Assembly (NCBI RefSeq): GCF_900100865.1 | Contig: NZ_LT627734.1 | Location: 1,302,001 to 1,366,000, forward strand | Source: Candidatus Aquiluna sp. UB-MaderosW2red | Lineage (GTDB): Bacteria; Actinomycetota; Actinomycetes; Actinomycetales; Microbacteriaceae | Direction of reading: 5' to 3' | Length of the DNA: 64,000 nucleotides | Shown: piece by piece, positions 1 through 13,264 of the stretch | Position numbering within the stretch: position 1 is the stretch's first letter | Layout: each line of letters opens with the position of its first letter | The notes under the pieces: model-generated | Databases searched by the model: none | What the model saw: the letters and a program-made list of their open reading frames with translations, nothing else | Told to the model about the DNA's origin: nothing | Made by a program: the position numbers and the translations under genes

Positions 1-1272
1 CCTAGGCTGGGCCCCCAAATGCGAGGCGAGAAGAAACTCAATTGAATCTTTACCGGTGGCTTCAAACTCGGCCAATTCGCCAACCGAGATGACCAGCGCC
101 GAGCCGCCCATCGCGAGTTGCGAAAGCTCCACGCTCACCAAATGGCTAAGTCGTTCGCTTGCAGAAATGCGGGCCTTGGTCAACCCAAGAGCGGCCTCGG
201 TTAAAGCCGAGAGCTCTGCTGCGAGTTGCTTTTCTAAATTCTCAAGCTGCTCATCAGAGGAATCGAGATTCAACATCTGCAGTCGAAGCGCTGGCAAAGA
301 TTCCACTAGCTCATCACAACTCCTGCCGTGTTTGCGCTCGAGTGAAATAAGCTCCGCCCTTCTGGAGAGTAACTTCTGCAATAAAGAGGGGTCTGCATCT
401 AGGTCTGAGAGGTAAGAGGATAAATCCGCAGCAACCTCACCAGCGAGCATGCCAATCTCCTTGAGTCGCTCGCTCAGGGCCAGCAGAATTGGATCGCTGG
501 ATAACTCAAGGGCCTTGCGCGCCGACGCAGCAAGCGACATAACATCCGAGCTGGTTTCGGAGCTAAGAGCATCGTGAGACTTATCTGCTGCCTCGCGAAG
601 AGACTCCACATTTCCTAGTCGCTCAACTTTTTCTGATAGCTCCTCTAGCTCTCCGAGAAAGGGATCGAGGGCTTCGATGTCAAATATCAGCTCTCGAAGT
701 TTCGACAGTGCCACTTGTTCCTCGGCACTACTGCCTCTAATGCGTTTTAGCTGAGCAGCCAAGGCTCGATGACTTAAATAATTTCCCGAGTATGTGCTCA
801 ACGCCTTGGCGAGTTCAGCTCCGCCGAAGGCGTCAAGGGCTTCACGCTGAGCGCCCGCAGAGCGCAATCGCAGTTGATCTGATTGCCCGTGAACGGTAAC
901 CAACTGATCGGCAATCAGAGACAGAACGGAAATGGGTACCGAAGCCCCAGAAATTGCCGCCTTTGACCTGCCGTCTTGCGAAACCGTTCGATTCACGATC
1001 AGCTCACCTTCTGAAAGATCAGCACCAAGATCAATAAGTTGCTCGGAGAGTGACGAATCCACCCCGAACCAACGTCCCTCTGCAAAAAGCGAGCTCTCAC
1101 CATTGCGAACCGAACCAGAGTCTGCTCGTCCGCCAAGCAGAAGATTCAAGGCTGTTAAAACCATGGTCTTTCCAGCGCCAGTCTCCCCCGTCAGTGCGGT
1201 GAAGCCTGCTGAAAGATTCAACTGCGCCGAACTTATTACTCCGAGGTTTCTTATTGAAATTGACTCAATCAA
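1..1272 (-). CDS. recN: DNA repair protein RecN, 3' end outside window
   Basis: SMC-like ATPase that acts on double-strand breaks during recombinational repair. The first 424 codons are visible; the C-terminal Walker B part lies beyond the window. The N-terminus carries a Walker A motif, GETGAGKT, at about residues 29-36, followed by LNLLLGGRAD, typical of RecN. The middle is charged, helical and coiled-coil-like. The start is a TTG overlapping the nadK stop by four bases (TTGA), with CGGAG eight bases upstream. It is the last visible gene of a nadK-tlyA-like operon, an arrangement common in actinobacteria. RecN is often SOS-controlled elsewhere, but no LexA box is visible here because the gene is embedded in the operon. 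Confidence 0.93.
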   Translation of the reverse strand, partial: MIESISIRNLGVISSAQLNLSAGFTALTGETGAGKTMVLTALNLLLGGRADSGSVRNGESSLFAEGRWFGVDSSLSEQLIDLGADLSEGELIVNRTVSQDGRSKAAISGASVPISVLSLIADQLVTVHGQSDQLRLRSAGAQREALDAFGGAELAKALSTYSGNYLSHRALAAQLKRIRGSSAEEQVALSKLRELIFDIEALDPFLGELEELSEKVERLGNVESLREAADKSHDALSSETSSDVMSLAASARKALELSSDPILLALSERLKEIGMLAGEVAADLSSYLSDLDADPSLLQKLLSRRAELISLERKHGRSCDELVESLPALRLQMLNLDSSDEQLENLEKQLAAELSALTEAALGLTKARISASERLSHLVSVELSQLAMGGSALVISVGELAEFEATGKDSIEFLLASHLGAQPR

Positions 1273-2165
1273 TTCGGGGACTCCGGACCCCTCCAGCCAA
1301 CAACTGGCAGGGCGAATTTTCTGACCAAGCGATCCGTGAAGGGAGCGTCACTCAGCACAATCATTGGTATTGAGGTATCCGATTTATAAACTTCGACCCT
1401 GGATCCGGGGCTCAAATCAAAGCTGCGCCTACCATCACACCACATCACTCCAGCACTCGCACTTCGAGCAAGGACCTCGATGGCAATCTCCGTGTTTGTG
1501 CCTAAAACAAGTGGCCGCGCAAATAGGGCGTGTGCGCTCAGGGGGACAAGCAGAAGCGCTTCGACATTTGGCCAGACAACCGGTCCTCCAGCGCTAAAGG
1601 CGTAAGCCGTGGATCCGGTGGGAGTTGATACCAGTACACCATCGCAGCCAAATGCCGCCAGTGGCCGACCATCCACCTCCATGACTACCTCGAGGACCCG
1701 CTCACGAGCACTTTTTTCTACGGTCACCTCATTGAGTGCCCAGGAATTAAAAACCTCAACACCTGAAACCATCACCGAAACTTCGAGGGCGACTCGGTTT
1801 CTAACTTTGTAATCCTTTTGAGCAAGGGCGGCGATTGCCGCGTCCAGACCAATAAGTTCCGCCTCTGCCATGAATCCGACGTGACCCGTATTGATTCCAA
1901 GAATAGGGACATTTTTCCCAAAGGTTAGTTCGGCAGCTCGAAGGATGCTCCCGTCACCCCCTAAGACCACCACGGCTTCGAGCTTCTGGGAATCATATTC
2001 GACTCGAGACTCAATCTCGGCCCCTTGAGATTCAAGCCTGGATAGCTCGCCCGGTTCAAAAAGGCAGCTCAGCCCGTTGGCTGAGAGCAGCTGGCAGACA
2101 TCCGAAACCAAGCTCGCCTGCGTCTGCGACTGAGCATTGGTAACTAGAAGAATGTTGCGGCTCAT
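1269..2165 (-). CDS. nadK: NAD kinase
   Basis: Phosphorylates NAD to NADP in the cytoplasm, supplying cofactor for biosynthesis. At 298 residues it is normal length. The diagnostic GGDGS motif is in VLGGDGSILRAAEL near residue 70, followed by NTGHVGFMAEA and the substrate-binding stretch STPTGSTAYAFSAGGP. The start ATG overlaps the tlyA stop (ATGA), and the stop overlaps the recN start, so tlyA-nadK-recN are probably translationally coupled. This order is common in actinobacteria. Confidence 0.97.
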   Translation of the reverse strand: MSRNILLVTNAQSQTQASLVSDVCQLLSANGLSCLFEPGELSRLESQGAEIESRVEYDSQKLEAVVVLGGDGSILRAAELTFGKNVPILGINTGHVGFMAEAELIGLDAAIAALAQKDYKVRNRVALEVSVMVSGVEVFNSWALNEVTVEKSARERVLEVVMEVDGRPLAAFGCDGVLVSTPTGSTAYAFSAGGPVVWPNVEALLLVPLSAHALFARPLVLGTNTEIAIEVLARSASAGVMWCDGRRSFDLSPGSRVEVYKSDTSIPMIVLSDAPFTDRLVRKFALPVVGWRGPESPN

Positions 2166-2959
2166 TTGCCCTTGGCCAACCTCTCAATTTCTTTAGACCA
2201 TTGTTGCCGATTATTTTCCCGATTTGGCGTTATCCACAACAAGAACTCCACGTTTCCGTGGGTCCCTTTTAGGCTCGAAGTTGTCAACCCGGAGATTTCA
2301 TACCCCAACTGCACCGCATTATCGGCCACCTGGGACATTGCCCTCGCCTTCTCCCGCCAGTCAGTAACTATTCCGTTGGCACTAAGCGAGTGCTTTCCAA
2401 CCTCAAATTGAGGCTTCACCAAAAGCACCATCGGCGCTTTTGGTGCAAGCTCTGCTAGCTGACTTAATACCAGCGTAAGAGAGATAAAGCTCAGATCCGC
2501 AACCACCAGTGAGAAATCAAGATTTTTGCCAACAAGCTCTTTTAAGGAGCCAGGGGTTAGGTCGCGAAGGTTGCACCCTTCAAGAGAAATGACTCGCCCG
2601 TCATTTTTCAATTCGGCAACTAGCTGGTCGTGACCTACATCCACCGCAACTACCCCGTGTGCGCCCTGTTCAAGAAGAACCTGAGTGAAGCCTCCGGTAG
2701 ATGACCCAGCGTCAAGACACCAGCCAGTTGGGGTCACTCCGAACTCAATCAGCGCCTCAGCTAGCTTCTGTCCAGCCCTAGAGACATAGTTAGCCCCCTC
2801 CGTCAGGTTGACTAGGTCAGTCTCTTCGATTTTCGCTGAGGACTTTGTTGCCAACTTCCCGTTGACTTCAACCCTGTTCTGCGAGATTAGCTGCGCGGCC
2901 TGAGACCTGGAGCGCGCAAGCAGTCTCACGACCAACTCGATGTCTAGTCGCTCAGCCAA
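2162..2959 (-). CDS. tlyA: TlyA family rRNA 2'-O-methyltransferase
   Basis: The TlyA family methylates ribose 2'-OH groups on 16S and 23S rRNA (C1409 and C1920 in mycobacteria) and affects sensitivity to cyclic-peptide antibiotics such as capreomycin. An N-terminal S4 RNA-binding domain (about residues 1-60: LDIELVVRLLARSRSQA) precedes an FtsJ-like SAM-binding domain with CLDAGSSTGGFTQVLLEQGA near residue 80. Length of 265 is normal. The start is a TTG directly abutting the stop of the 37-codon ORF upstream, so its translation probably depends on reinitiation. Confidence 0.94.
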   Translation of the reverse strand: MAERLDIELVVRLLARSRSQAAQLISQNRVEVNGKLATKSSAKIEETDLVNLTEGANYVSRAGQKLAEALIEFGVTPTGWCLDAGSSTGGFTQVLLEQGAHGVVAVDVGHDQLVAELKNDGRVISLEGCNLRDLTPGSLKELVGKNLDFSLVVADLSFISLTLVLSQLAELAPKAPMVLLVKPQFEVGKHSLSANGIVTDWREKARAMSQVADNAVQLGYEISGLTTSSLKGTHGNVEFLLWITPNRENNRQQWSKEIERLAKGK

Positions 2960-3082: not shown

Positions 3083-4063
3083 CTAACTAAAAAGAGCCGG
3101 CTCGACGTCTAATGCATAAATCGGCGTACCGCAGGTCCAGATTAGCTCGCTTGCGGCCCTTAAGGCGTCTAACGATGCAGGGTCGCCTCGAGAAACCAAA
3201 ACCTTGCCCGCCAAAAGCTCAACCTCTGTTTTATTAACCCGAATTCCGTACTTGGTCTTTTTTGACTTTGGGTAATCAAGAAGCAATTCGCTCAAGTCCC
3301 CAAGAATAAACTTTGGTCTATCCTCAATATTGGCCCCAAGCAGCTCTTTGCGAGTTGCTATTCCTGTCATAACGCAAGCCGAGTCGATTCCAAAGTTATT
3401 TGCCCCCCTGATATCGGTATCGAGACGATCTCCAACAAATAGCGGATTCGAGATTTCCAACTCGTCGATTGCGGATCGGAATATTGGAGCGAATGGCTTT
3501 CCTGCCACGTCAGGAAGTATTCCAACAGCGGTATGAACGGCAGAGACAAGAGTCCCATTTCCGGGCGCTATGCCGTCTTCTCTTGGAATGGTCCAGTCTT
3601 GATTGGTGGCAATCCAGATTGCACCATTTTGAATTGCGTAGCTCGCCTGGGCAAGATCATCCCAAGAAACATCGTGGTTAAATCCCTGGATCACTGCCTT
3701 TGGTAGTTGCTTATGTGAATCTACAATCTCAAAACCAGCCTCCAACACGGCAACCCTCAGGCCTTCCCCTCCCACGACCAAGACTTTTTCACCAACATTT
3801 ATTCGCTCAAGGAGCATCTTCGCTCCAGCCCGAGCGGAACCAATCAGACTTGATGAAGTTGCCGGTAATCCAAAACCAGCTAATTGCTCAGCCATGGATT
3901 CTTGGGTTCGCGACGCATTATTAGTAACATATCCGACCTGCAATCCCCTTGCATGCACGGCGAGGATACTCGAGACTGCGTTTTTTACTGGCTCATTACC
4001 TAAATAGACAACTCCATCAAGATCCAATAACAGAGAATCGTAACCACTAATCAGCTGAACCAT
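3083..4063 (-). CDS. HAD-superfamily (NagD-like) sugar/glycerol phosphate phosphatase
   Basis: Cytoplasmic phosphatase of the HAD IIA (NagD/4-nitrophenylphosphatase) class. The nucleophile motif LLLDLDGVVYLGNEPV is near the N-terminus, motif II is in VGYVTNNAS, and motif IV is in PLFVGDRLDTDIRGA. A C-terminal extension of about 60 residues resembles the tail of the mycobacterial Rv1692-type phosphatase. The ATG at 4063 is chosen because a perfect AGGAGG lies four bases upstream; a longer GTG reading from 4087 has no such support. It overlaps the end of the repeat protein by 17 bp. Exact substrate cannot be read from sequence; glycerol-3-phosphate is the best guess by family. Confidence 0.9.
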   Translation of the reverse strand: MVQLISGYDSLLLDLDGVVYLGNEPVKNAVSSILAVHARGLQVGYVTNNASRTQESMAEQLAGFGLPATSSSLIGSARAGAKMLLERINVGEKVLVVGGEGLRVAVLEAGFEIVDSHKQLPKAVIQGFNHDVSWDDLAQASYAIQNGAIWIATNQDWTIPREDGIAPGNGTLVSAVHTAVGILPDVAGKPFAPIFRSAIDELEISNPLFVGDRLDTDIRGANNFGIDSACVMTGIATRKELLGANIEDRPKFILGDLSELLLDYPKSKKTKYGIRVNKTEVELLAGKVLVSRGDPASLDALRAASELIWTCGTPIYALDVEPALFS

Positions 4064-6167
4064 TTGGCCTCCTAGGCTTTGAATCACCTCGGTCGAATCG
4101 CTTACGCTCTACCGGCCTCGAATCGCTGGGCCTGGCAGGTTTTTGATCTGAAGATCGGGCGGGCCTAGCGTCACCATCGCGCCTCGGACGGTCATCCTTT
4201 GGACGATCGCCGGCTGGCCTGGAGGGCCTGCCGGAGTCACTGCCCGGTCTGGAGTAACTTCCTTCGCGGCGTGGCCTATCCTCATAACTTCTTGCTGGCC
4301 GATCGCCACGATCTGACTCGGGCCTTGGCCTTGAAGGGCGTGAATCAGAATCACGATTTGGGCGATCGCCGGCTGGCCTGGAGGGCCTGCCGGAGTCACT
4401 GCCCGGTCTGGAATAACCTCCTTCGCGGCGTGGCCTATCCTCATAACTTCTTGCTGGCCGATCGCCACGATCTGACTCGGGCCTTGGCCTTGACGGGCGA
4501 GAATCAGAATCACGATTTGGGCGATCGCCGGCTGGCCTGGAGGGCCTGCCGGAGTCACTGCCCGGTCTGGAATAACCTCCTTCGCGGCGTGGTCTATCCT
4601 CATAACTTCTTGCTGGCCGATCGCCACGATCTGACTCGGGCCTTGGCCTTGACGGGCGAGAATCAGAATCACGGTTTGGGCGATCGCCGGCTGGCCTGGA
4701 GGGCCTGCCGGAGTCACTTCCCGGTCTGGAATAACCCCCCTCACGGCGTGGTCTATCCTCATAACTTCTTGCTGGCCGATCGCCACGATCTGACTCGGGC
4801 CTTGGCCTTGATGGCCGAGAATCAGAATCACGGTTTGGGCGATCCTCAAAACTGCGACGAGGTCGCTCATCGCGATCGCCGGCTGGCCTGGAGGGCCTGC
4901 CGGAGTCACTTCCCGGTCTGGAATAACCTCCCTCACGGCGTGGTCTATCCTCATAACTTCTTGCTGGCCGATCTCCACGATCTGACTCGGGCCTTGGCCT
5001 TGATGGCCGAGAATCAGAATCACGGTTTGGGCGATCCTCAAAACTGCGACGAGGTCGCTCATCGCGATCGCCGGCTGGCCTGGAGGGCCTGCCGGAGTCA
5101 CTTCCCGGTCTGGAGTAACCTCCCTCGCGGCGTGGTCTATCCTCATAACTTCTTGCTGGCCGATCGCCACGATCTGACTCGGGCCTTGGCCTTGACGGGC
5201 GTGAATCAGCATCACGGTTTGGGCGATCGCCGGCTGGCCTGGAGGGCCTGCCGGAGTCACTGCCCGGTCTGGAGTAACTTCCTTCGCGGCGTGGTCTGTC
5301 GTCACGATCGCCCTCGCGGCGTGGCTTATATTCTTTTTTCTCTGGTTTCATGGTCGCGTCGAATTCCTCGCTGGTTGGGATGCTGATCTCCTCGAAAACG
5401 TCAAAGAGCTCGCCATCCTGAGTTGCTATTGCGGTCTCTGCTCTTTCAGCCAGAGCATCCCACTCGTCGCCATCGCGCCCCAATTCCCGGAGGCATTCGG
5501 CGTAGGCGCGAAAAAGGGCAGGGGATTGTTCGTGGACGCGCTTTGGAGACAGCTCAGGGATCTCAAGCTCCTGAAGCGCCAACTTTGCTTCGCCCATGTC
5601 GAGCCTGGCTCCAGAAAGCGCGATAGCAAGATTAATCCGAATTCCGACCGGCAAAGAAGTTCGGTCAACACCAACTACTGCTTCCAATGCTCGCTTCGGG
5701 CGTTCCATCCCACGCTCAGAATCTACAATCAGCGGTAGCTGCTCATTGGAGGCAGAAAGTCTTCGATGAGTAAGGAGCTCTCGCAGAGCCAAGGAGAAAT
5801 CACCAATTGCGTATGCCGTGAGACCAAGGGTTTCATGAGCAATCGCCAAACGGCCAGCTCTCCTAGACGCAGCTAATGCATGCTTATGGGCCAACTGGGG
5901 ATCATCGTCGATCAAAAGAGACACCATCGCGAGGTGCCGGGCAGTCATCTCAGCATTTTCGGCGGTTAAAGTCTTAAGTTGCACCCGAGCCCCGATGTCC
6001 AGATCCTCTGGGGTGATCGCGCTAGGAATCAGGGGGGACTTTTCGTCGGTGCGAACGCGCTCTACGCGCTTTTGCCACTCCGGACGCTCCGATTCATTGC
6101 GCTCGCCTCGACCCGAAGGACCCTCAGGCCTTTCATTCGGCCGTTTGCCTCTGCCGCGTTCTTCCAT
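4047..6167 (-). CDS. TPR-like protein with a large arginine/serine/proline tandem-repeat tail
   Basis: A 706-residue protein in two halves. Residues about 50-270 are helical and TPR-like (RLAIAHETLGLTAYAIGDFSLALREL and similar), corresponding to the actinobacterial hypothetical found beside the Rv1692-type phosphatase. Residues from about 285 to the end are low-complexity R, D, S, P and G, dominated by seven copies of a 53-residue unit containing SYEDRPRREGGYSRPGSDSG. Two copies carry an extra 11 residues (DERPRRSFEDR). The tail is strongly charged and disordered, like RGG-type RNA-binding tails, so RNA or ribosome association is plausible but unproven. AAGGAG lies just before the ATG. No enzymatic motif is visible. 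Confidence 0.85.
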   Translation of the reverse strand: MEERGRGKRPNERPEGPSGRGERNESERPEWQKRVERVRTDEKSPLIPSAITPEDLDIGARVQLKTLTAENAEMTARHLAMVSLLIDDDPQLAHKHALAASRRAGRLAIAHETLGLTAYAIGDFSLALRELLTHRRLSASNEQLPLIVDSERGMERPKRALEAVVGVDRTSLPVGIRINLAIALSGARLDMGEAKLALQELEIPELSPKRVHEQSPALFRAYAECLRELGRDGDEWDALAERAETAIATQDGELFDVFEEISIPTSEEFDATMKPEKKEYKPRREGDRDDRPRREGSYSRPGSDSGRPSRPAGDRPNRDADSRPSRPRPESDRGDRPARSYEDRPRREGGYSRPGSDSGRPSRPAGDRDERPRRSFEDRPNRDSDSRPSRPRPESDRGDRPARSYEDRPRREGGYSRPGSDSGRPSRPAGDRDERPRRSFEDRPNRDSDSRPSRPRPESDRGDRPARSYEDRPRREGGYSRPGSDSGRPSRPAGDRPNRDSDSRPSRPRPESDRGDRPARSYEDRPRREGGYSRPGSDSGRPSRPAGDRPNRDSDSRPSRPRPESDRGDRPARSYEDRPRREGGYSRPGSDSGRPSRPAGDRPNRDSDSRPSRPRPESDRGDRPARSYEDRPRREGSYSRPGSDSGRPSRPAGDRPKDDRPRRDGDARPARSSDQKPARPSDSRPVERKRFDRGDSKPRRPNGSAD
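4195..5335 (-). repeat. Seven-copy coding tandem repeat, 159-bp unit (two units 192 bp)
   Basis: Within the tail of the TPR-like protein, the landmark gatcgccggctggcc begins at 4205, 4364, 4523, 4682, 4874, 5066 and 5225. The spacings are 159, 159, 159, 192, 192 and 159 bp. All are multiples of three, so copy-number change keeps the frame. Units are nearly identical at the DNA level, including at silent positions, which points to recent duplication or gene conversion. Because the period is in frame, long open frames also appear on the opposite strand and in a shifted frame; these are by-products. Confidence 0.95.
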
Positions 6168-6202
6168 TATTTAACTCCTTGAGCAATTTTTGGCTTAAAT
6201 AG

Positions 6203-6231
6203 AAAAGGCCACCCCAAAAGGAGTGGCCATT
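6203..6231 (-). terminator. Rho-independent terminator of the rrn operon
   Basis: On the minus strand GGCCACTCC-TTTT-GGGGTGGCC forms a nine-pair stem (one U-G wobble) followed by TTTTCT. It lies just downstream of 5S and upstream of the repeat-protein gene. Confidence 0.9.
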
Positions 6232-6241
6232 TCTAAAGTAA

Positions 6242-6359
6242 GTCCGGCGGTGTCCTACTCTCCCACAAGGTCCCCCTTGCAGTACCATCGGCGCTGAGAG
6301 TCTTAGCTTCCGGGTTCGGAATGTGACCGGGCGTTTCCCTCTCGCTATGGCCGCCGAAA
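6242..6359 (-). rRNA. rrf: 5S ribosomal RNA
   Basis: The minus strand reads from GTTTCGGCGGCCATAGCG through the conserved CCGAACCCGGAAGCTAAG to GGACACCGCCGGAC. Length is about 118 nt and the terminal stem can form. It is the last gene of the rrn operon, before the terminator. Ends are accurate to a few bases. Confidence 0.95.
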
Positions 6360-6463
6360 CACTATTGAAGCACGTGAATCGATTAAGCATAAGCTTAGTA
6401 TTCGGTTCTCGAACGTACTTCGAGAACCACACAGTGGACGCAAGCAAAAGTTTTGAAGTTGTA
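6360..6463 (-). other. 23S-5S spacer with a perfect 10-bp hairpin
   Basis: Between 23S and 5S, 6404-6428 is GGTTCTCGAA-CGTAC-TTCGAGAACC, a perfect inverted repeat. It is a plausible RNase processing stem for releasing 5S. No tRNA is present. Confidence 0.75.
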
Positions 6464-11464
<5,001 letters not shown>

Positions 11465-11962
11465 AAAATTGTTTCACTGATAAATCAGCAAAGCATTTAC
11501 GAACGCCTCGGAAATGAGGCGATCAATTTGATTTGGCTTTCGAACTGTCTACTGACAATTCTGTTTTGTATCTTTATCCAAAAAGGATCTCTGCCAGAAC
11601 AAGTTCTGACCGAGGTTTTTGGCATCGACATTGTGCACGCTGTTGAGTTCTCAAAGATCGGATGCACCTGATTTCATCTTTCGAATCAGCCTCAGGGCAA
11701 CTTCACAAGCCTACCGATTTCCAGCTCTTTGTCAACTCCTGGTAACCCAGAAATCTTCATCAAAATTTTGATCGGAAGACCTAAATCCTAGACACTAAAA
11801 ACGTCGACCACAAGGGCCATTTTAGATCTTGGAAGTGTTGCACTTGAACCGGCAATCTCAATGGATTCTGCCTAGCTTTGGTCAACTCGGTAGAGCTTAG
11901 TCACGATTTAGTCACGCTGTCAAATCAAACCCGAGATTGTTCAATAAATCTTTCGGAACCCG
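11465..11962 (-). promoter_or_regulatory. rrn leader and promoter region
   Basis: A stretch of 498 bp between tyrS and 16S with no gene. On the minus strand three candidate promoters are spaced through it: TTGACA-N18-TAAGCT (11894-11923), TTGTGG-N17-TAGGAT (11785-11813) and TTGACA-N16-TAGGCT (11708-11735). The last is closest and strongest. Downstream is a nut-like box TTTGAGAACTCAACAGCGTG (about 11634-11656), a CAGAAC-AA-GTTCTG repeat (11595-11608) and a CGCCTC-N6-GAGGCG hairpin (11504-11521). This matches the multi-promoter, antiterminated rrn leaders of actinobacteria. Confidence 0.75.
11708..11735 (-). promoter_or_regulatory. Main candidate rrn promoter
   Basis: TTGACA (11730-11735) and TAGGCT (11708-11713) are separated by 16 bp on the minus strand, about 245 bp before 16S. 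It precedes the nut-like box. Confidence 0.7.
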
Positions 11963-13264
11963 CTATTTCACTAGGAAAAGTGCCGCTAAATTCTTTTTGC
12001 CACGCCCTAGGACTGCCATAGAATCGTGCAGAAAATCCGTCATCTGATCATCCACGGACTCAACTTTGATTTTATTGAATGTAACCGCCCCCTGTTCGAT
12101 TGCTCGCCTGGCCGCCGAGTTCGATTCAGAAAGCCCCGTTTTCACCAATGCCTCGATAACGGAAGTGCCGTTCTGAACCTCAATACCAGGCAACGCATTC
12201 AGAGCGTTTCTGAGAGTTTTTTCATCCAGCGCCCGAATTTCACCTGAGCCAAATAATGCGGAAGAGGCTGTTTCAGCCATCAACGCCTCTTGTTTGGAGT
12301 GCACAAGCTCAACAACCTCAAGTGCCAGCCTTTTTTGTGCTTCGCGCCTGAAGGGCTCGTCCAAGACCTTCTGGGCGTAGTCCTGAATCTCTAGGCGGGT
12401 AAGGAAAGTGAAAACCTTAAGTCTGTCGATCACATCGGAATCGTCTGTGTTCAACCAAAACTGATACATCGCATAGGCGCTGGTAAGCGATTCATCAAGC
12501 CATATGGCATTCCCCTCGCTTTTGCCGAACTTCTTTCCATCGGAATTGGTTATCAAGGGCGTGGCAATCAAGTGCACACTTTTACCCTCAACCTTGTGAA
12601 CCAGATCTGATCCCGAAGTAAGGTTGCCCCACTGATCGCTTCCGCCAGTTTGCATCGAGCAGTTATAACGCCTATTCAGCTCCAGAAAATCTAGGCCTTG
12701 CAAAATTTGGTAACTAAACTCCGTGTAACTAATGCCAGCATCCGAATTAAGGCGGGCGCTAACCGAGTCTTTAGCAAGCATTTTTCCGACCCGATAGTGC
12801 TTCCCGATCTCTCTCAAAAAATCGATTGCGCTGTATTGACTAGTCCAATCGAGGTTGTTGACCATCTTGGCCGCGAATGGTCCCTCAAAATCGAGGAACC
12901 TAGCATTTTGGGCAGCCAAACGCTCCACCCAATCCGCGACCGTCTCCCTGGTATTCAAGGTGCGCTCCGCATTCGGCTTTGGATCCCCGATTAGGCCAGT
13001 AGCTCCACCCACCAAGGCAAGCGGAAAGTGGCCGGCCAATTGAATCCGACGCATCGTCAGTAACTGCACCAAGTTCCCAAGGTGCAAAGAGGGCGCGGTT
13101 GGGTCAAAGCCGCAGTAATAAGTCATTGGCCCGACGCTGAGCGCAGCTCTAAGCTCTTTTTCGTCAGTGGATAGTGCAATTAGCCCCCGCCACAAGAGCT
13201 CATCAATAATGTGTTCGAAACTCGAATCATTCCGTTGAGCCCTAAGAGTTTCTAAGGTTGCCAC
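11963..13264 (-). CDS. tyrS: Tyrosyl-tRNA synthetase
   Basis: Class I aminoacyl-tRNA synthetase that charges tRNA-Tyr. GFDPTAPSLHLGN near residue 52 is the HIGH-type motif, and KFGKSEGN near 235 is the KMSKS-type motif. A C-terminal S4-like domain (SAARRAIEQGAVTFN) binds tRNA. At 433 residues it is the usual bacterial TyrS size. The start is GTG directly after the argH stop, so it is translated from the argH transcript; the same argH-tyrS order occurs in other actinobacteria. It is the last gene of the long infC-to-tyrS run. Confidence 0.97.
   Translation of the reverse strand: MATLETLRAQRNDSSFEHIIDELLWRGLIALSTDEKELRAALSVGPMTYYCGFDPTAPSLHLGNLVQLLTMRRIQLAGHFPLALVGGATGLIGDPKPNAERTLNTRETVADWVERLAAQNARFLDFEGPFAAKMVNNLDWTSQYSAIDFLREIGKHYRVGKMLAKDSVSARLNSDAGISYTEFSYQILQGLDFLELNRRYNCSMQTGGSDQWGNLTSGSDLVHKVEGKSVHLIATPLITNSDGKKFGKSEGNAIWLDESLTSAYAMYQFWLNTDDSDVIDRLKVFTFLTRLEIQDYAQKVLDEPFRREAQKRLALEVVELVHSKQEALMAETASSALFGSGEIRALDEKTLRNALNALPGIEVQNGTSVIEALVKTGLSESNSAARRAIEQGAVTFNKIKVESVDDQMTDFLHDSMAVLGRGKKNLAALFLVK

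Follow-up and report, generated by a model that had tools for sequence, protein, structure and literature searches.

A TPR protein with a disordered repeat arm, encoded right behind the rRNA genes in Aquiluna and in many other actinobacteria

Our results revealed a little-studied TPR protein whose gene lies right behind the rRNA genes in many actinobacteria, among them Candidatus Aquiluna sp. UB-MaderosW2red, in which a stretch of 64 kb (the window) was analysed. This protein represents a conserved actinobacterial family and is not the oddity of a single genome. Our results also suggest that it carries an arm of adjustable length, made of in-frame tandem repeats, which would hold the protein near newly made rRNA.

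The gene and its repeat array

The array is located on the chromosome, together with the rrn operon and the genes that surround it. The TPR gene is directly upstream of the genes for a HAD hydrolase, TlyA, NAD kinase and a protein that we take to be RecN, and the same order was present in the fetched regions of relatives. TlyA, encoded downstream, belongs to an rRNA methyltransferase family. The features are as follows:

4047..6167, minus strand: ORF of the rrn-linked TPR protein with a disordered C-terminal arm, 706 aa, ATG start
5397..6059, minus strand: predicted TPR solenoid core, residues about 37-257 (AF2, PDB alignments, column identity)
4050..5396, minus strand: disordered C-terminal arm, 449 residues, R/P/S/D-rich (composition, charge-hydropathy, pLDDT)
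5142..5300, minus strand: repeat unit 1, 53 residues
4950..5141, minus strand: repeat unit 2, 64 residues including the 11-residue insert
4758..4949, minus strand: repeat unit 3, 64 residues including the 11-residue insert
4599..4757, minus strand: repeat unit 4, 53 residues
4440..4598, minus strand: repeat unit 5, 53 residues
4281..4439, minus strand: repeat unit 6, 53 residues
4200..4280, minus strand: partial repeat unit 7, 27 residues
5031..5063, minus strand: 33-nt insert (DERPRRSFEDR) of unit 2, placed by hand from unit coordinates
4839..4871, minus strand: 33-nt insert (DERPRRSFEDR) of unit 3, placed by hand from unit coordinates
6207..6228, minus strand: terminator-like hairpin, then TTTTCTATTT, between the 5S and the TPR gene (hairpin scan)
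6175..6180, minus strand: likely ribosome-binding site AAGGAG, 7 nt 5' of the ATG (read from the sequence)
6242..6358, minus strand: 5S rRNA, the sole copy found in the genome
6460..9560, minus strand: 23S rRNA
9943..11465, minus strand: 16S rRNA
3083..4087, minus strand: HAD-IIA family hydrolase; the listed ORF overlaps the TPR gene end (ORF, Pfam/NCBIfam)
2162..2959, minus strand: TlyA-family rRNA 2'-O-methyltransferase (TIGR00478, above its cut-off)
1269..2165, minus strand: NAD kinase (Pfam/NCBIfam)
11963..13264, minus strand: ORF upstream of the rrn operon, whose protein reads as what we take to be TyrS; syntenic in the relatives' fetched regions

The original prediction was of seven near-identical, in-frame units of 53 residues. 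Near-identical in-frame repeats are indeed present, as six full units (53, 64, 64, 53, 53 and 53 residues, running from 5300 down to 4281) and a partial seventh of 27; the two longer units owe their 64 residues to the DERPRRSFEDR insert, whose DNA is the same in both. The array is real and exceeds chance. Run on the whole window, TRF returned only two rows, both being this array (4198-4844, period 159, score 1189; 4680-5228, period 192, score 1042). With the insert removed, every pair of full copies showed differences, at 3-10 of the 159 nt, and 12 of the 14 variable codons among the full copies were silent (13 of 15 including the partial copy). Thus, the proposed identity down to silent sites did not hold, the differences falling mostly at silent codons, and the proposed recent expansion holds loosely: since the copies show silent divergence and none is identical to another, the array is fairly young, not brand-new.

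The fact that the copies can be told apart makes a simple assembly duplication less likely. Long near-identical repeats are error-prone, and the contig of one relative stops inside its tail (L006/L019), but the full copies differ by at least 3 nt pairwise, the genome is in one contig and 99.97% complete, and arrays are present in many other genomes. An inflated or collapsed copy number is therefore extremely improbable.

Two further long ORFs overlie the array (398 aa on the minus strand, 395 aa on the plus strand). They are most simply explained as by-products of a repeat period divisible by three (159, 192), and a second gene within the array was rejected because the alternative ORFs follow from these periods. 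Of the five other reading frames, four had 12 or 13 residue-changing variable codons and 0 or 1 silent ones; in one opposite-strand frame 10 of 13 were silent, a frame that the codon test alone would allow.

The protein, its relatives and their place behind the rRNA genes

The core is predicted to be a TPR-type helical solenoid. Its AF2 model had a mean pLDDT of 92.8 and 11 helices, and the best PDB alignments of the model were with TPR proteins (Z up to 15.5, rmsd 2.9, 169 residues), in agreement with the TPR base originally proposed. Note that the fold is generic: TPR chains head the PDB fold-match lists, no function was named among the matches listed, and Foldseek with the core model gave no match at E<=0.001. 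The core alignment has a mean column identity of 65% in 26 rows, 12 of whose 26 members matched TPR_2 in Pfam (best E 0.00074). The window protein itself matched 0 Pfam families at E<=1, TPR models included, and nothing in NCBIfam, as expected of the uncharacterised protein it had been taken for; the PDB sequence search returned 0 solved relatives.

The arm is a long low-complexity disordered region built of repeated units, containing R (25%), P (16%), S (15%), D (14%) and K (2%), with 84 RP/PR, 36 RS/SR and 41 DR/RD dipeptides. Composition, charge-hydropathy and low pLDDT over the repeats (about 34-41, with no secondary structure in the predicted model) all support the disordered, charged tail that had been described. 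The description of this tail as RGG-like was incorrect, as its 449 residues contain 0 RGG. A phage origin was rejected, since neither core nor arm had a PHROGs match and the core was found in 288 of 299 family genomes, with one match each. Judged by its conservation and position, a surface protein seems unlikely.

The gene has a single match in its own genome. Phylum-wide, strong core matches were found in 85 of 198 genomes, many of which contributed rows to the search profile. Of 150 loci that were evaluable, non-redundant and complete, 129 had a same-strand 5S within 400 nt upstream of the gene (15/15, 18/18, 57/62, 20/26 and 19/29 in five groups assigned by search origin) and 21 had none; these loci were best-scoring or hand-picked matches, with no random draw and with Microbacterium over-represented. 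A later phylum-wide batch, from 39 of the 85 strong-match genomes, hand-picked and with none among the previous loci, was 5S-adjacent in 29 of 37 evaluable loci, 8 having no 5S within 400 nt. Thus, the rrn neighbourhood that had been pointed out is confirmed and recurs across the phylum. Before the count of 150 we dropped 43 of 220 loci because they repeated a core, 19 of 177 as incomplete and 8 of 158 at contig edges; the tree covers 85 of the 158 loci. The rRNA and HAD/TlyA genes were searched with the window's own sequences, by which diverged copies can be missed. The start codon was set to the first ATG/GTG/TTG found 25 nt or more past the 5S, so that gaps are lower bounds and N-arm lengths upper bounds. 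Under the words searched, no description of the rrn-TPR gene link was found in the open-access literature, and the literature matches listed include no Aquiluna report of the repeats.

In mycobacteria, the printed gene list of the lprJ-recN cluster has the TPR protein Rv1691 before its cluster partner, tlyA, ppnK and recN (PMC3072309), and MSMEG_3754 is printed as its orthologue (PMC7092591). Both resemble the window protein in TPR type and in their place before tlyA, the NAD kinase gene (ppnK) and recN, which suggests, from the gene order in that list, that the window protein belongs to the Rv1691 family. Unlike the printed cluster, the window locus has an rrn operon directly upstream and a long repeat arm on the protein. 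Class-level relatives of 280-309 aa matched the core profile and had short arms only.

In the 700-nt region scanned for hairpins, 2 terminator-like sites were found, compared to 1.0 expected in shuffles, and the fold of the hairpin stretch (around 6207..6228) had a z-score of -5.1. A hairpin followed by Ts was present in 77 of 129 gaps, compared to 1-4 in five mononucleotide shuffles. The promoter scan gave 0 sites, with 0.4 expected in shuffles, and is thus little informative. These results bear on the possibility that the rrn position provides strong, growth-coupled expression and nothing else, the protein being a general TPR hub or chaperone and its arm a solubility or crowding device. In support of this, the TPR fold is generic, the hairpin and Ts would make read-through limited and tunable, and the M. 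smegmatis protein is present in a printed ClpC1 interactome table (PMC10433963). However, of the 24 evaluable order- or phylum-level regions in which the 5S adjoins the gene, 10 had no HAD or TlyA found within 3 kb, indicating that the rrn link is not merely via the HAD/TlyA block; in one genome the gene is duplicated, with a 5S 66 nt upstream of each copy (L272, L273); and the mycobacterial protein was recovered with crosslinked RNA polymerase, as printed in PMC7092591. We consider this explanation possible but on the whole unlikely.

Arm variation and selection

The basic arm is found at the N-terminus, opposite an acidic C-terminus, in the remaining Microbacteriaceae and in other families of the order; the Aquiluna/Rhodoluna relatives carry their longer basic arm at the C-terminus. 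All 152 N arms with 20 residues or more had a net positive charge. N-arm length ranged from 3 to 726 residues. Arm length was expected to vary between strains without frameshift. The period was divisible by three in 539 of the 543 arrays in the relatives' arms, in accordance with the second part of this expectation; as to the first, with one genome per species, arm length varied between some close relatives and not between others. The unit sequences differ by lineage, as judged by eye and from TRF periods, and deep members can be nearly armless (e.g. L207, L213, L216, and in the later batch L267, L284, L285).

To analyse selection, neighbouring copies were compared in one array per arm (period at least 24), excluding neighbours more than 20% different and codons with multiple changes. 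In the genus (5 arrays) there were 28 silent and 6 changing codons, and in other Microbacteriaceae (47 arrays) 737 and 146, with a silent share of 28-29% expected under neutrality; relative to the neutral expectation, the changing-to-silent ratio was thus about 0.08 in both, and 0.16 across the order's other families, from comparisons that are not independent of each other. The repeat DNA therefore drifts while the repeat protein is conserved, as in the window itself (12/14), and the mostly silent differences indicate that selection keeps the repeat unit. This reduces the probability that the low-complexity arm is largely neutral, a product of slippage and recombination, with the TPR core alone functional, an explanation that we find quite improbable. 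Units that look unrelated between lineages, the wide range of N-arm lengths, the C arm of only 6 residues in one genus relative (L017) and the lone Rhodoluna-like array tested (0 silent, 1 changing difference) fit that explanation; the ratios above, the uniformly positive N arms and the periods divisible by three, although coding by itself requires the latter, argue against it.

Similar arrays have been described in the archaeal Borg elements, where in-frame tandem repeats are fast-evolving, independently arising and under strong selection, and their amino-acid repeats commonly disordered; as printed, they are on extrachromosomal elements and often in extracellular or membrane proteins (PMC9879509). 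The window array is likewise in-frame and disordered, with drifting DNA and a conserved repeat protein. Unlike the Borg repeats so described, it belongs to one chromosomal, rrn-linked family with repeat arms in many lineages, and no Borg element is involved.

A candidate role near new rRNA

The 5S linkage, the disordered positive arms, the selection on the units and the printed RNA polymerase pull-down (PMC7092591) lead us to favour, tentatively and at somewhat less than even confidence, an rrn-operon-linked TPR adaptor with the repeat arm serving as a multivalent tether to RNA. In that pull-down, as printed, MSMEG_3754 recovered no DNA, and the authors propose that it might just be associated with RNA; the RNA-binding role originally suggested thus gains support as a candidate. 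The TPR solenoid would grip a protein partner and the arginine-rich arm would bind nascent rRNA or pre-ribosomal particles, thereby concentrating the partner at the site of rRNA synthesis and assembly. As the first cistron past the 5S and hairpin, the gene would probably be expressed by rRNA read-through, tracking growth rate. The length of the arm depends on in-frame tandem duplication. Lineages differ in copy number, in unit sequence and in which terminus bears the longer basic arm, and valency, rather than a fixed sequence, may be what counts.

Some observations run counter to such a tether. The rrn adjacency could be explained by expression level or gene-block inertia, and a formaldehyde pull-down is no proof of RNA contact; its authors add that the bound DNA may have been too little to detect (PMC7092591), and the ClpC1 interactome table (PMC10433963) lists the protein too. 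The net charge of the window arm is only +0.07 per residue, R being interleaved with D/E, some members are nearly armless and some loci have no 5S. The Pfam and NCBIfam searches found no RNA-binding domain, and the fold matches are generic TPR.

The pull-down could also be read as evidence of a direct rRNA-transcription factor, riding RNA polymerase on rrn in antitermination or pausing and having no part in ribosome assembly. MSMEG_3754 is on the high-confidence list of the formaldehyde-crosslinked anti-RNA-polymerase pull-down of M. smegmatis, and the gene sits at the end of the very unit that would be acted upon. However, ribosomes and many other proteins were in the same pull-down (PMC7092591). 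Since, in addition, no known transcription-factor domain was found in Pfam or NCBIfam, this role is very doubtful.

A bolder and rather unlikely extension of the tethering adaptor is that the gene behind rrn in Actinomycetota encodes the scaffold of a nucleolus-like compartment. This TPR hub, which has an Arg-rich, basic arm and often also an acidic tail, would gather rRNA as it is made, along with RNA polymerase and with factors for assembly such as TlyA; in-frame repeat expansion would retune valency, and the basic arm could switch terminus with function kept. RNA-binding proteins with RGG/GAR arms, such as nucleolin, carry an Arg-rich, repetitive, disordered arm. As in nucleolin, many relatives of the window protein pair a basic arm with an acidic stretch on one protein; unlike the RGG/GAR proteins, the window protein has an arm free of RGG and a TPR core, and its RNA binding is putative. 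In the nucleolus-like RNA polymerase/NusA clusters at rrn, multivalent factors are concentrated on rRNA transcription, an idea that may extend to the TPR protein, which is known here from its sequence and predicted structure.

If the tethering adaptor is right, an uncharacterised protein would be genetically tied to rRNA synthesis across much of Actinomycetota (strong matches in 85 of 198 genomes). The family would be a natural system in which to learn what disordered arms must conserve, since unit sequence, length and terminus change among relatives, whereas charge sign and position behind rrn are mostly kept. As arm length comes in countable units, a dose-response by repeat number would be directly testable.

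A repeat array in the disordered arm of a TPR-like protein

TRF detected just one tandem repeat in the 64 kb window, reporting it in two rows; it lies in a TPR gene that has a single match in its own genome (1.66 Mb, one contig, 99.97% complete). Anchored on the translated gene, the array consists of six full units of 53, 64, 64, 53, 53 and 53 residues and a partial seventh of 27 residues. The repeat pattern of the original prediction is real and sound as an observation, but its seven full units were six plus this fragment. The extra length of both 64-residue units comes from one 33-nt insert, whose DNA is the same in the two. The features of this region are:

Window 4047-6167, minus strand: TPR gene (706 aa), with the array in its C-terminal arm
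Window 5300 down to 4200, minus strand: repeat array, placed with the translated gene as anchor
Window 4109-5305, minus strand: further ORF of 398 aa, open across the array
Window 4199-5386, plus strand: further ORF of 395 aa, open across the array

The copies had also been described as identical at silent sites, which was not borne out: with the insert removed, pairs of full copies show 3-10 differences over 159 nt, and 12 of the 14 codons that vary among the six are silent. When the partial copy is included, 13 of 15 are silent, against a chance expectation of 28%, and among copies 2-6 no difference alters a residue. A period divisible by three is the simplest explanation for the two additional ORFs. 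One opposite-strand frame over the array also has 10 of 13 variable codons silent. Six of the window's eight GCGATCGC palindromes fall in the array (window 4362-5230), compared to 1.5 expected in the whole window; this excess probably results from codon choice at G-D-R, and the word could act as a seed for recombination between units.

Matches to Pfam and NCBIfam models were absent for the protein itself, and the Pfam TPR model gave weak matches in 12 of 26 alignment members. In support of the proposed TPR-like base, residues about 37-257 are predicted to form an all-helical solenoid (mean pLDDT 92.8), and the solved chains aligning best with this core model are TPR proteins (MamA: Z 15.5, rmsd 2.9, 169 residues). 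Foldseek searches with the core gave no match at E<=0.001, and a PDB sequence search returned no relative. The predicted disorder of the tail was likewise upheld: the 449-residue C arm (R 25%, P 16%, S 15%, D 14%, K 2%) plots as disordered in the charge-hydropathy comparison, and a full-length model based on 12 sequences (mean pLDDT 48.2, pTM 0.28; core only 41-87 by blocks) shows no secondary structure in the repeats, where pLDDT is about 34-41. The tail cannot be called RGG-like, since the arm contains no RGG.

The longer basic arm changes terminus between lineages

The core was matched in 17 of 22 genomes of the genus (11 of 13 among those at least 90% complete), 288 of 299 of the family and 146 of 149 of the order. 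Across the phylum, a family-built profile matched 53 of 148 genomes and a broader one 136 of 198 at E<=0.001. Of the latter, 85 of 198 were counted as members (E<=1.5e-36, with most of the model covered), some having supplied rows to the profile; the remaining, partial matches (E>=7e-12) were treated as generic TPR matches. From 220 loci we obtained 177 distinct cores, 158 of them with complete ORFs, in five groups assigned by search origin.

Arms, arrays and 5S position in the five groups. N and C arms precede and follow the core; arm lengths are medians in residues, and positive and negative refer to net charge. Silent:changing counts compare neighbouring copies (number of arrays in brackets; silent expectation 28-29%).
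Group; loci with TRF arrays in arms; silent:changing; N arm; C arm; 5S within 400 nt
Aquiluna-like; 8/16; 28:6 (5); short, 34, positive 15/15; 113, positive 15/15; 15/15
Rhodoluna-like; 4/18; 0:1 (1); positive 18/18; positive 13/17; 18/18
Other Microbacteriaceae; 64/64; 737:146 (47); 292.5, positive 64/64; at least 20 residues: positive 0/62, below -0.15 per residue 61/62; 57/62
Other families of the order; 18/29; 74:31 (12); 230; below -0.15 per residue 25/25; 20/26
Rest of the phylum (arms mostly shorter); 4/31; 32:3 (1); 47, maximum 432, positive 26/26; 5, positive 1/6; 19/29

The array period was divisible by three in 539 of 543 cases. From one lineage to the next, the units show no obvious resemblance: an EKREFKPRDG-type unit of 10 residues occurs in the 92-residue arm of the locus closest to the window's in the core tree, and the unit of L027, also an Aquiluna relative, has 49 residues (147 nt x 3.3). 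Independently arising repeats that are under selection and create disordered regions are described for Borg elements (PMC9879509).

Arm length is variable in some lineages and constant in others, in a comparison of genomes taken one per species and hence not of strains. N arms measure 411 and 444 residues in a pair with cores 94.9% identical in DNA, 286 and 356 in a pair at 92.3%, and 313, 420 and 394 in three strains bearing the name Aurantimicrobium minutum (core DNA identity 81-83% for two compared pairs); the C arms of L021 and L027 (84%) measure 138 and 233. Arms are equal in three pairs at 92.6-94.0% (L009/L010, L028/L030 and L101/L102) and 2 residues apart in L063/L066 (90.0%). In Candidatus Aquiluna sp. 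IMCC13023 (L019/L006) the contig stops inside the tail, and arm lengths from draft genomes are therefore unreliable.

In the core tree (85 of the 158 loci), the Aquiluna-like and Rhodoluna-like loci share one branch (support 100/98), adjoining the other Microbacteriaceae. As the tree is midpoint-rooted, we can only infer, as the simplest reading, that the older layout paired a long basic N arm with an acidic C arm and that in the Aquiluna-/Rhodoluna-like clade the longer basic arm then moved to the C-terminal side.

The acidic tail of the other Microbacteriaceae often carries [DE][DE]Vxx[ILV]L (frequently EDEVRELLGED), present in 37 of the 61 C arms that reach 30 residues or more, many from close relatives, against a shuffle mean of 0.4 (largest 2). 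It begins 17-76 residues from the C-terminus (L082, L051, L067, L091, L061, L073 and others) and was found in 0/14 Aquiluna-like, 0/16 Rhodoluna-like, 0/21 other-order and 0/4 other-phylum arms. This may be a docking motif that disappeared along with the acidic tail.

Position of the TPR gene behind the 5S gene

The minus-strand order in the window is TyrS, 16S, 23S, 5S, TPR gene, HAD hydrolase, TlyA, NAD kinase and RecN; TyrS and RecN are presumed names that we assigned by reading the proteins, and the HAD ORF as listed overlaps the end of the TPR gene. The adjacency to the rrn operon that had been pointed out extends well beyond this genome. Here, the single 5S copy lies 74 nt before the TPR start codon; among the 158 loci, 136 have a same-strand 5S upstream (median distance 73 nt; 129 within 400 nt, 7 farther), 14 lack one over an upstream stretch of at least 400 nt, and the remaining 8 lie at contig edges, giving 129 of 150 evaluable loci within 400 nt. 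A further batch (40 loci from 39 hand-picked genomes, 3 at edges) gave 29 of 37, with 2 farther and 6 without. Long, nearly perfect repeats mark the N arms of two deep-branching loci (L253, L261), neither with a 5S found upstream.

Forty neighbourhoods overlapping the 158-locus set were also taken. In the 35 that were evaluable, 5S and HAD/TlyA were found together in 14 and neither in 6; 5S alone was found in 10, a search of 3 kb revealing no HAD/TlyA, and HAD/TlyA alone in 5. One genome has two equally scoring TPR copies (L272, L273), each 66 nt behind a 5S, with HAD, TlyA and NADK found behind just one; perhaps the rrn operon and this gene were duplicated as a unit.

The gap between 5S and the TPR gene contains a terminator-like hairpin with a T-run (fold z-score -5.1; 2 such sites in 700 nt compared to 1.0 expected). 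Among relatives, 77 of 129 gaps have a hairpin followed by Ts, whereas five mononucleotide shuffles gave 1-4. A scan for sigma-70-like sites found none in window 5900-6600, where shuffles predict only 0.4. Expression of the TPR gene by read-through from rrn is likely. We place the proposal that the protein is an RNA tether somewhat short of an even chance: the arm would contact RNA, the core would bind a partner, and the protein would act on rRNA maturation or ribosome assembly. The main rival to this proposal, that the rrn position serves expression only, seems less probable to us.

The protein was previously known only as uncharacterised or as a TPR protein. The lprJ-recN cluster comprises lprJ, Rv1691, Rv1692, Rv1693, tlyA, ppnK and recN (PMC3072309). 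An anti-RNA-polymerase pull-down following formaldehyde treatment placed MSMEG_3754, given as the Rv1691 orthologue, on its high-confidence list, from which it was picked for validation (PMC7092591); it is also entered in a ClpC1 interactome table (PMC10433963). Another source mentions Rv1691 just as an entry among the tabulated partners of a different protein (PMC11754781). The literature searched contained no report of the rrn-TPR link; within it, the rrn linkage looks new, as do the terminus change and the selection acting on the repeats. The array is one episode within a conserved, rrn-linked TPR family that bears repeat-built arms in many lineages.
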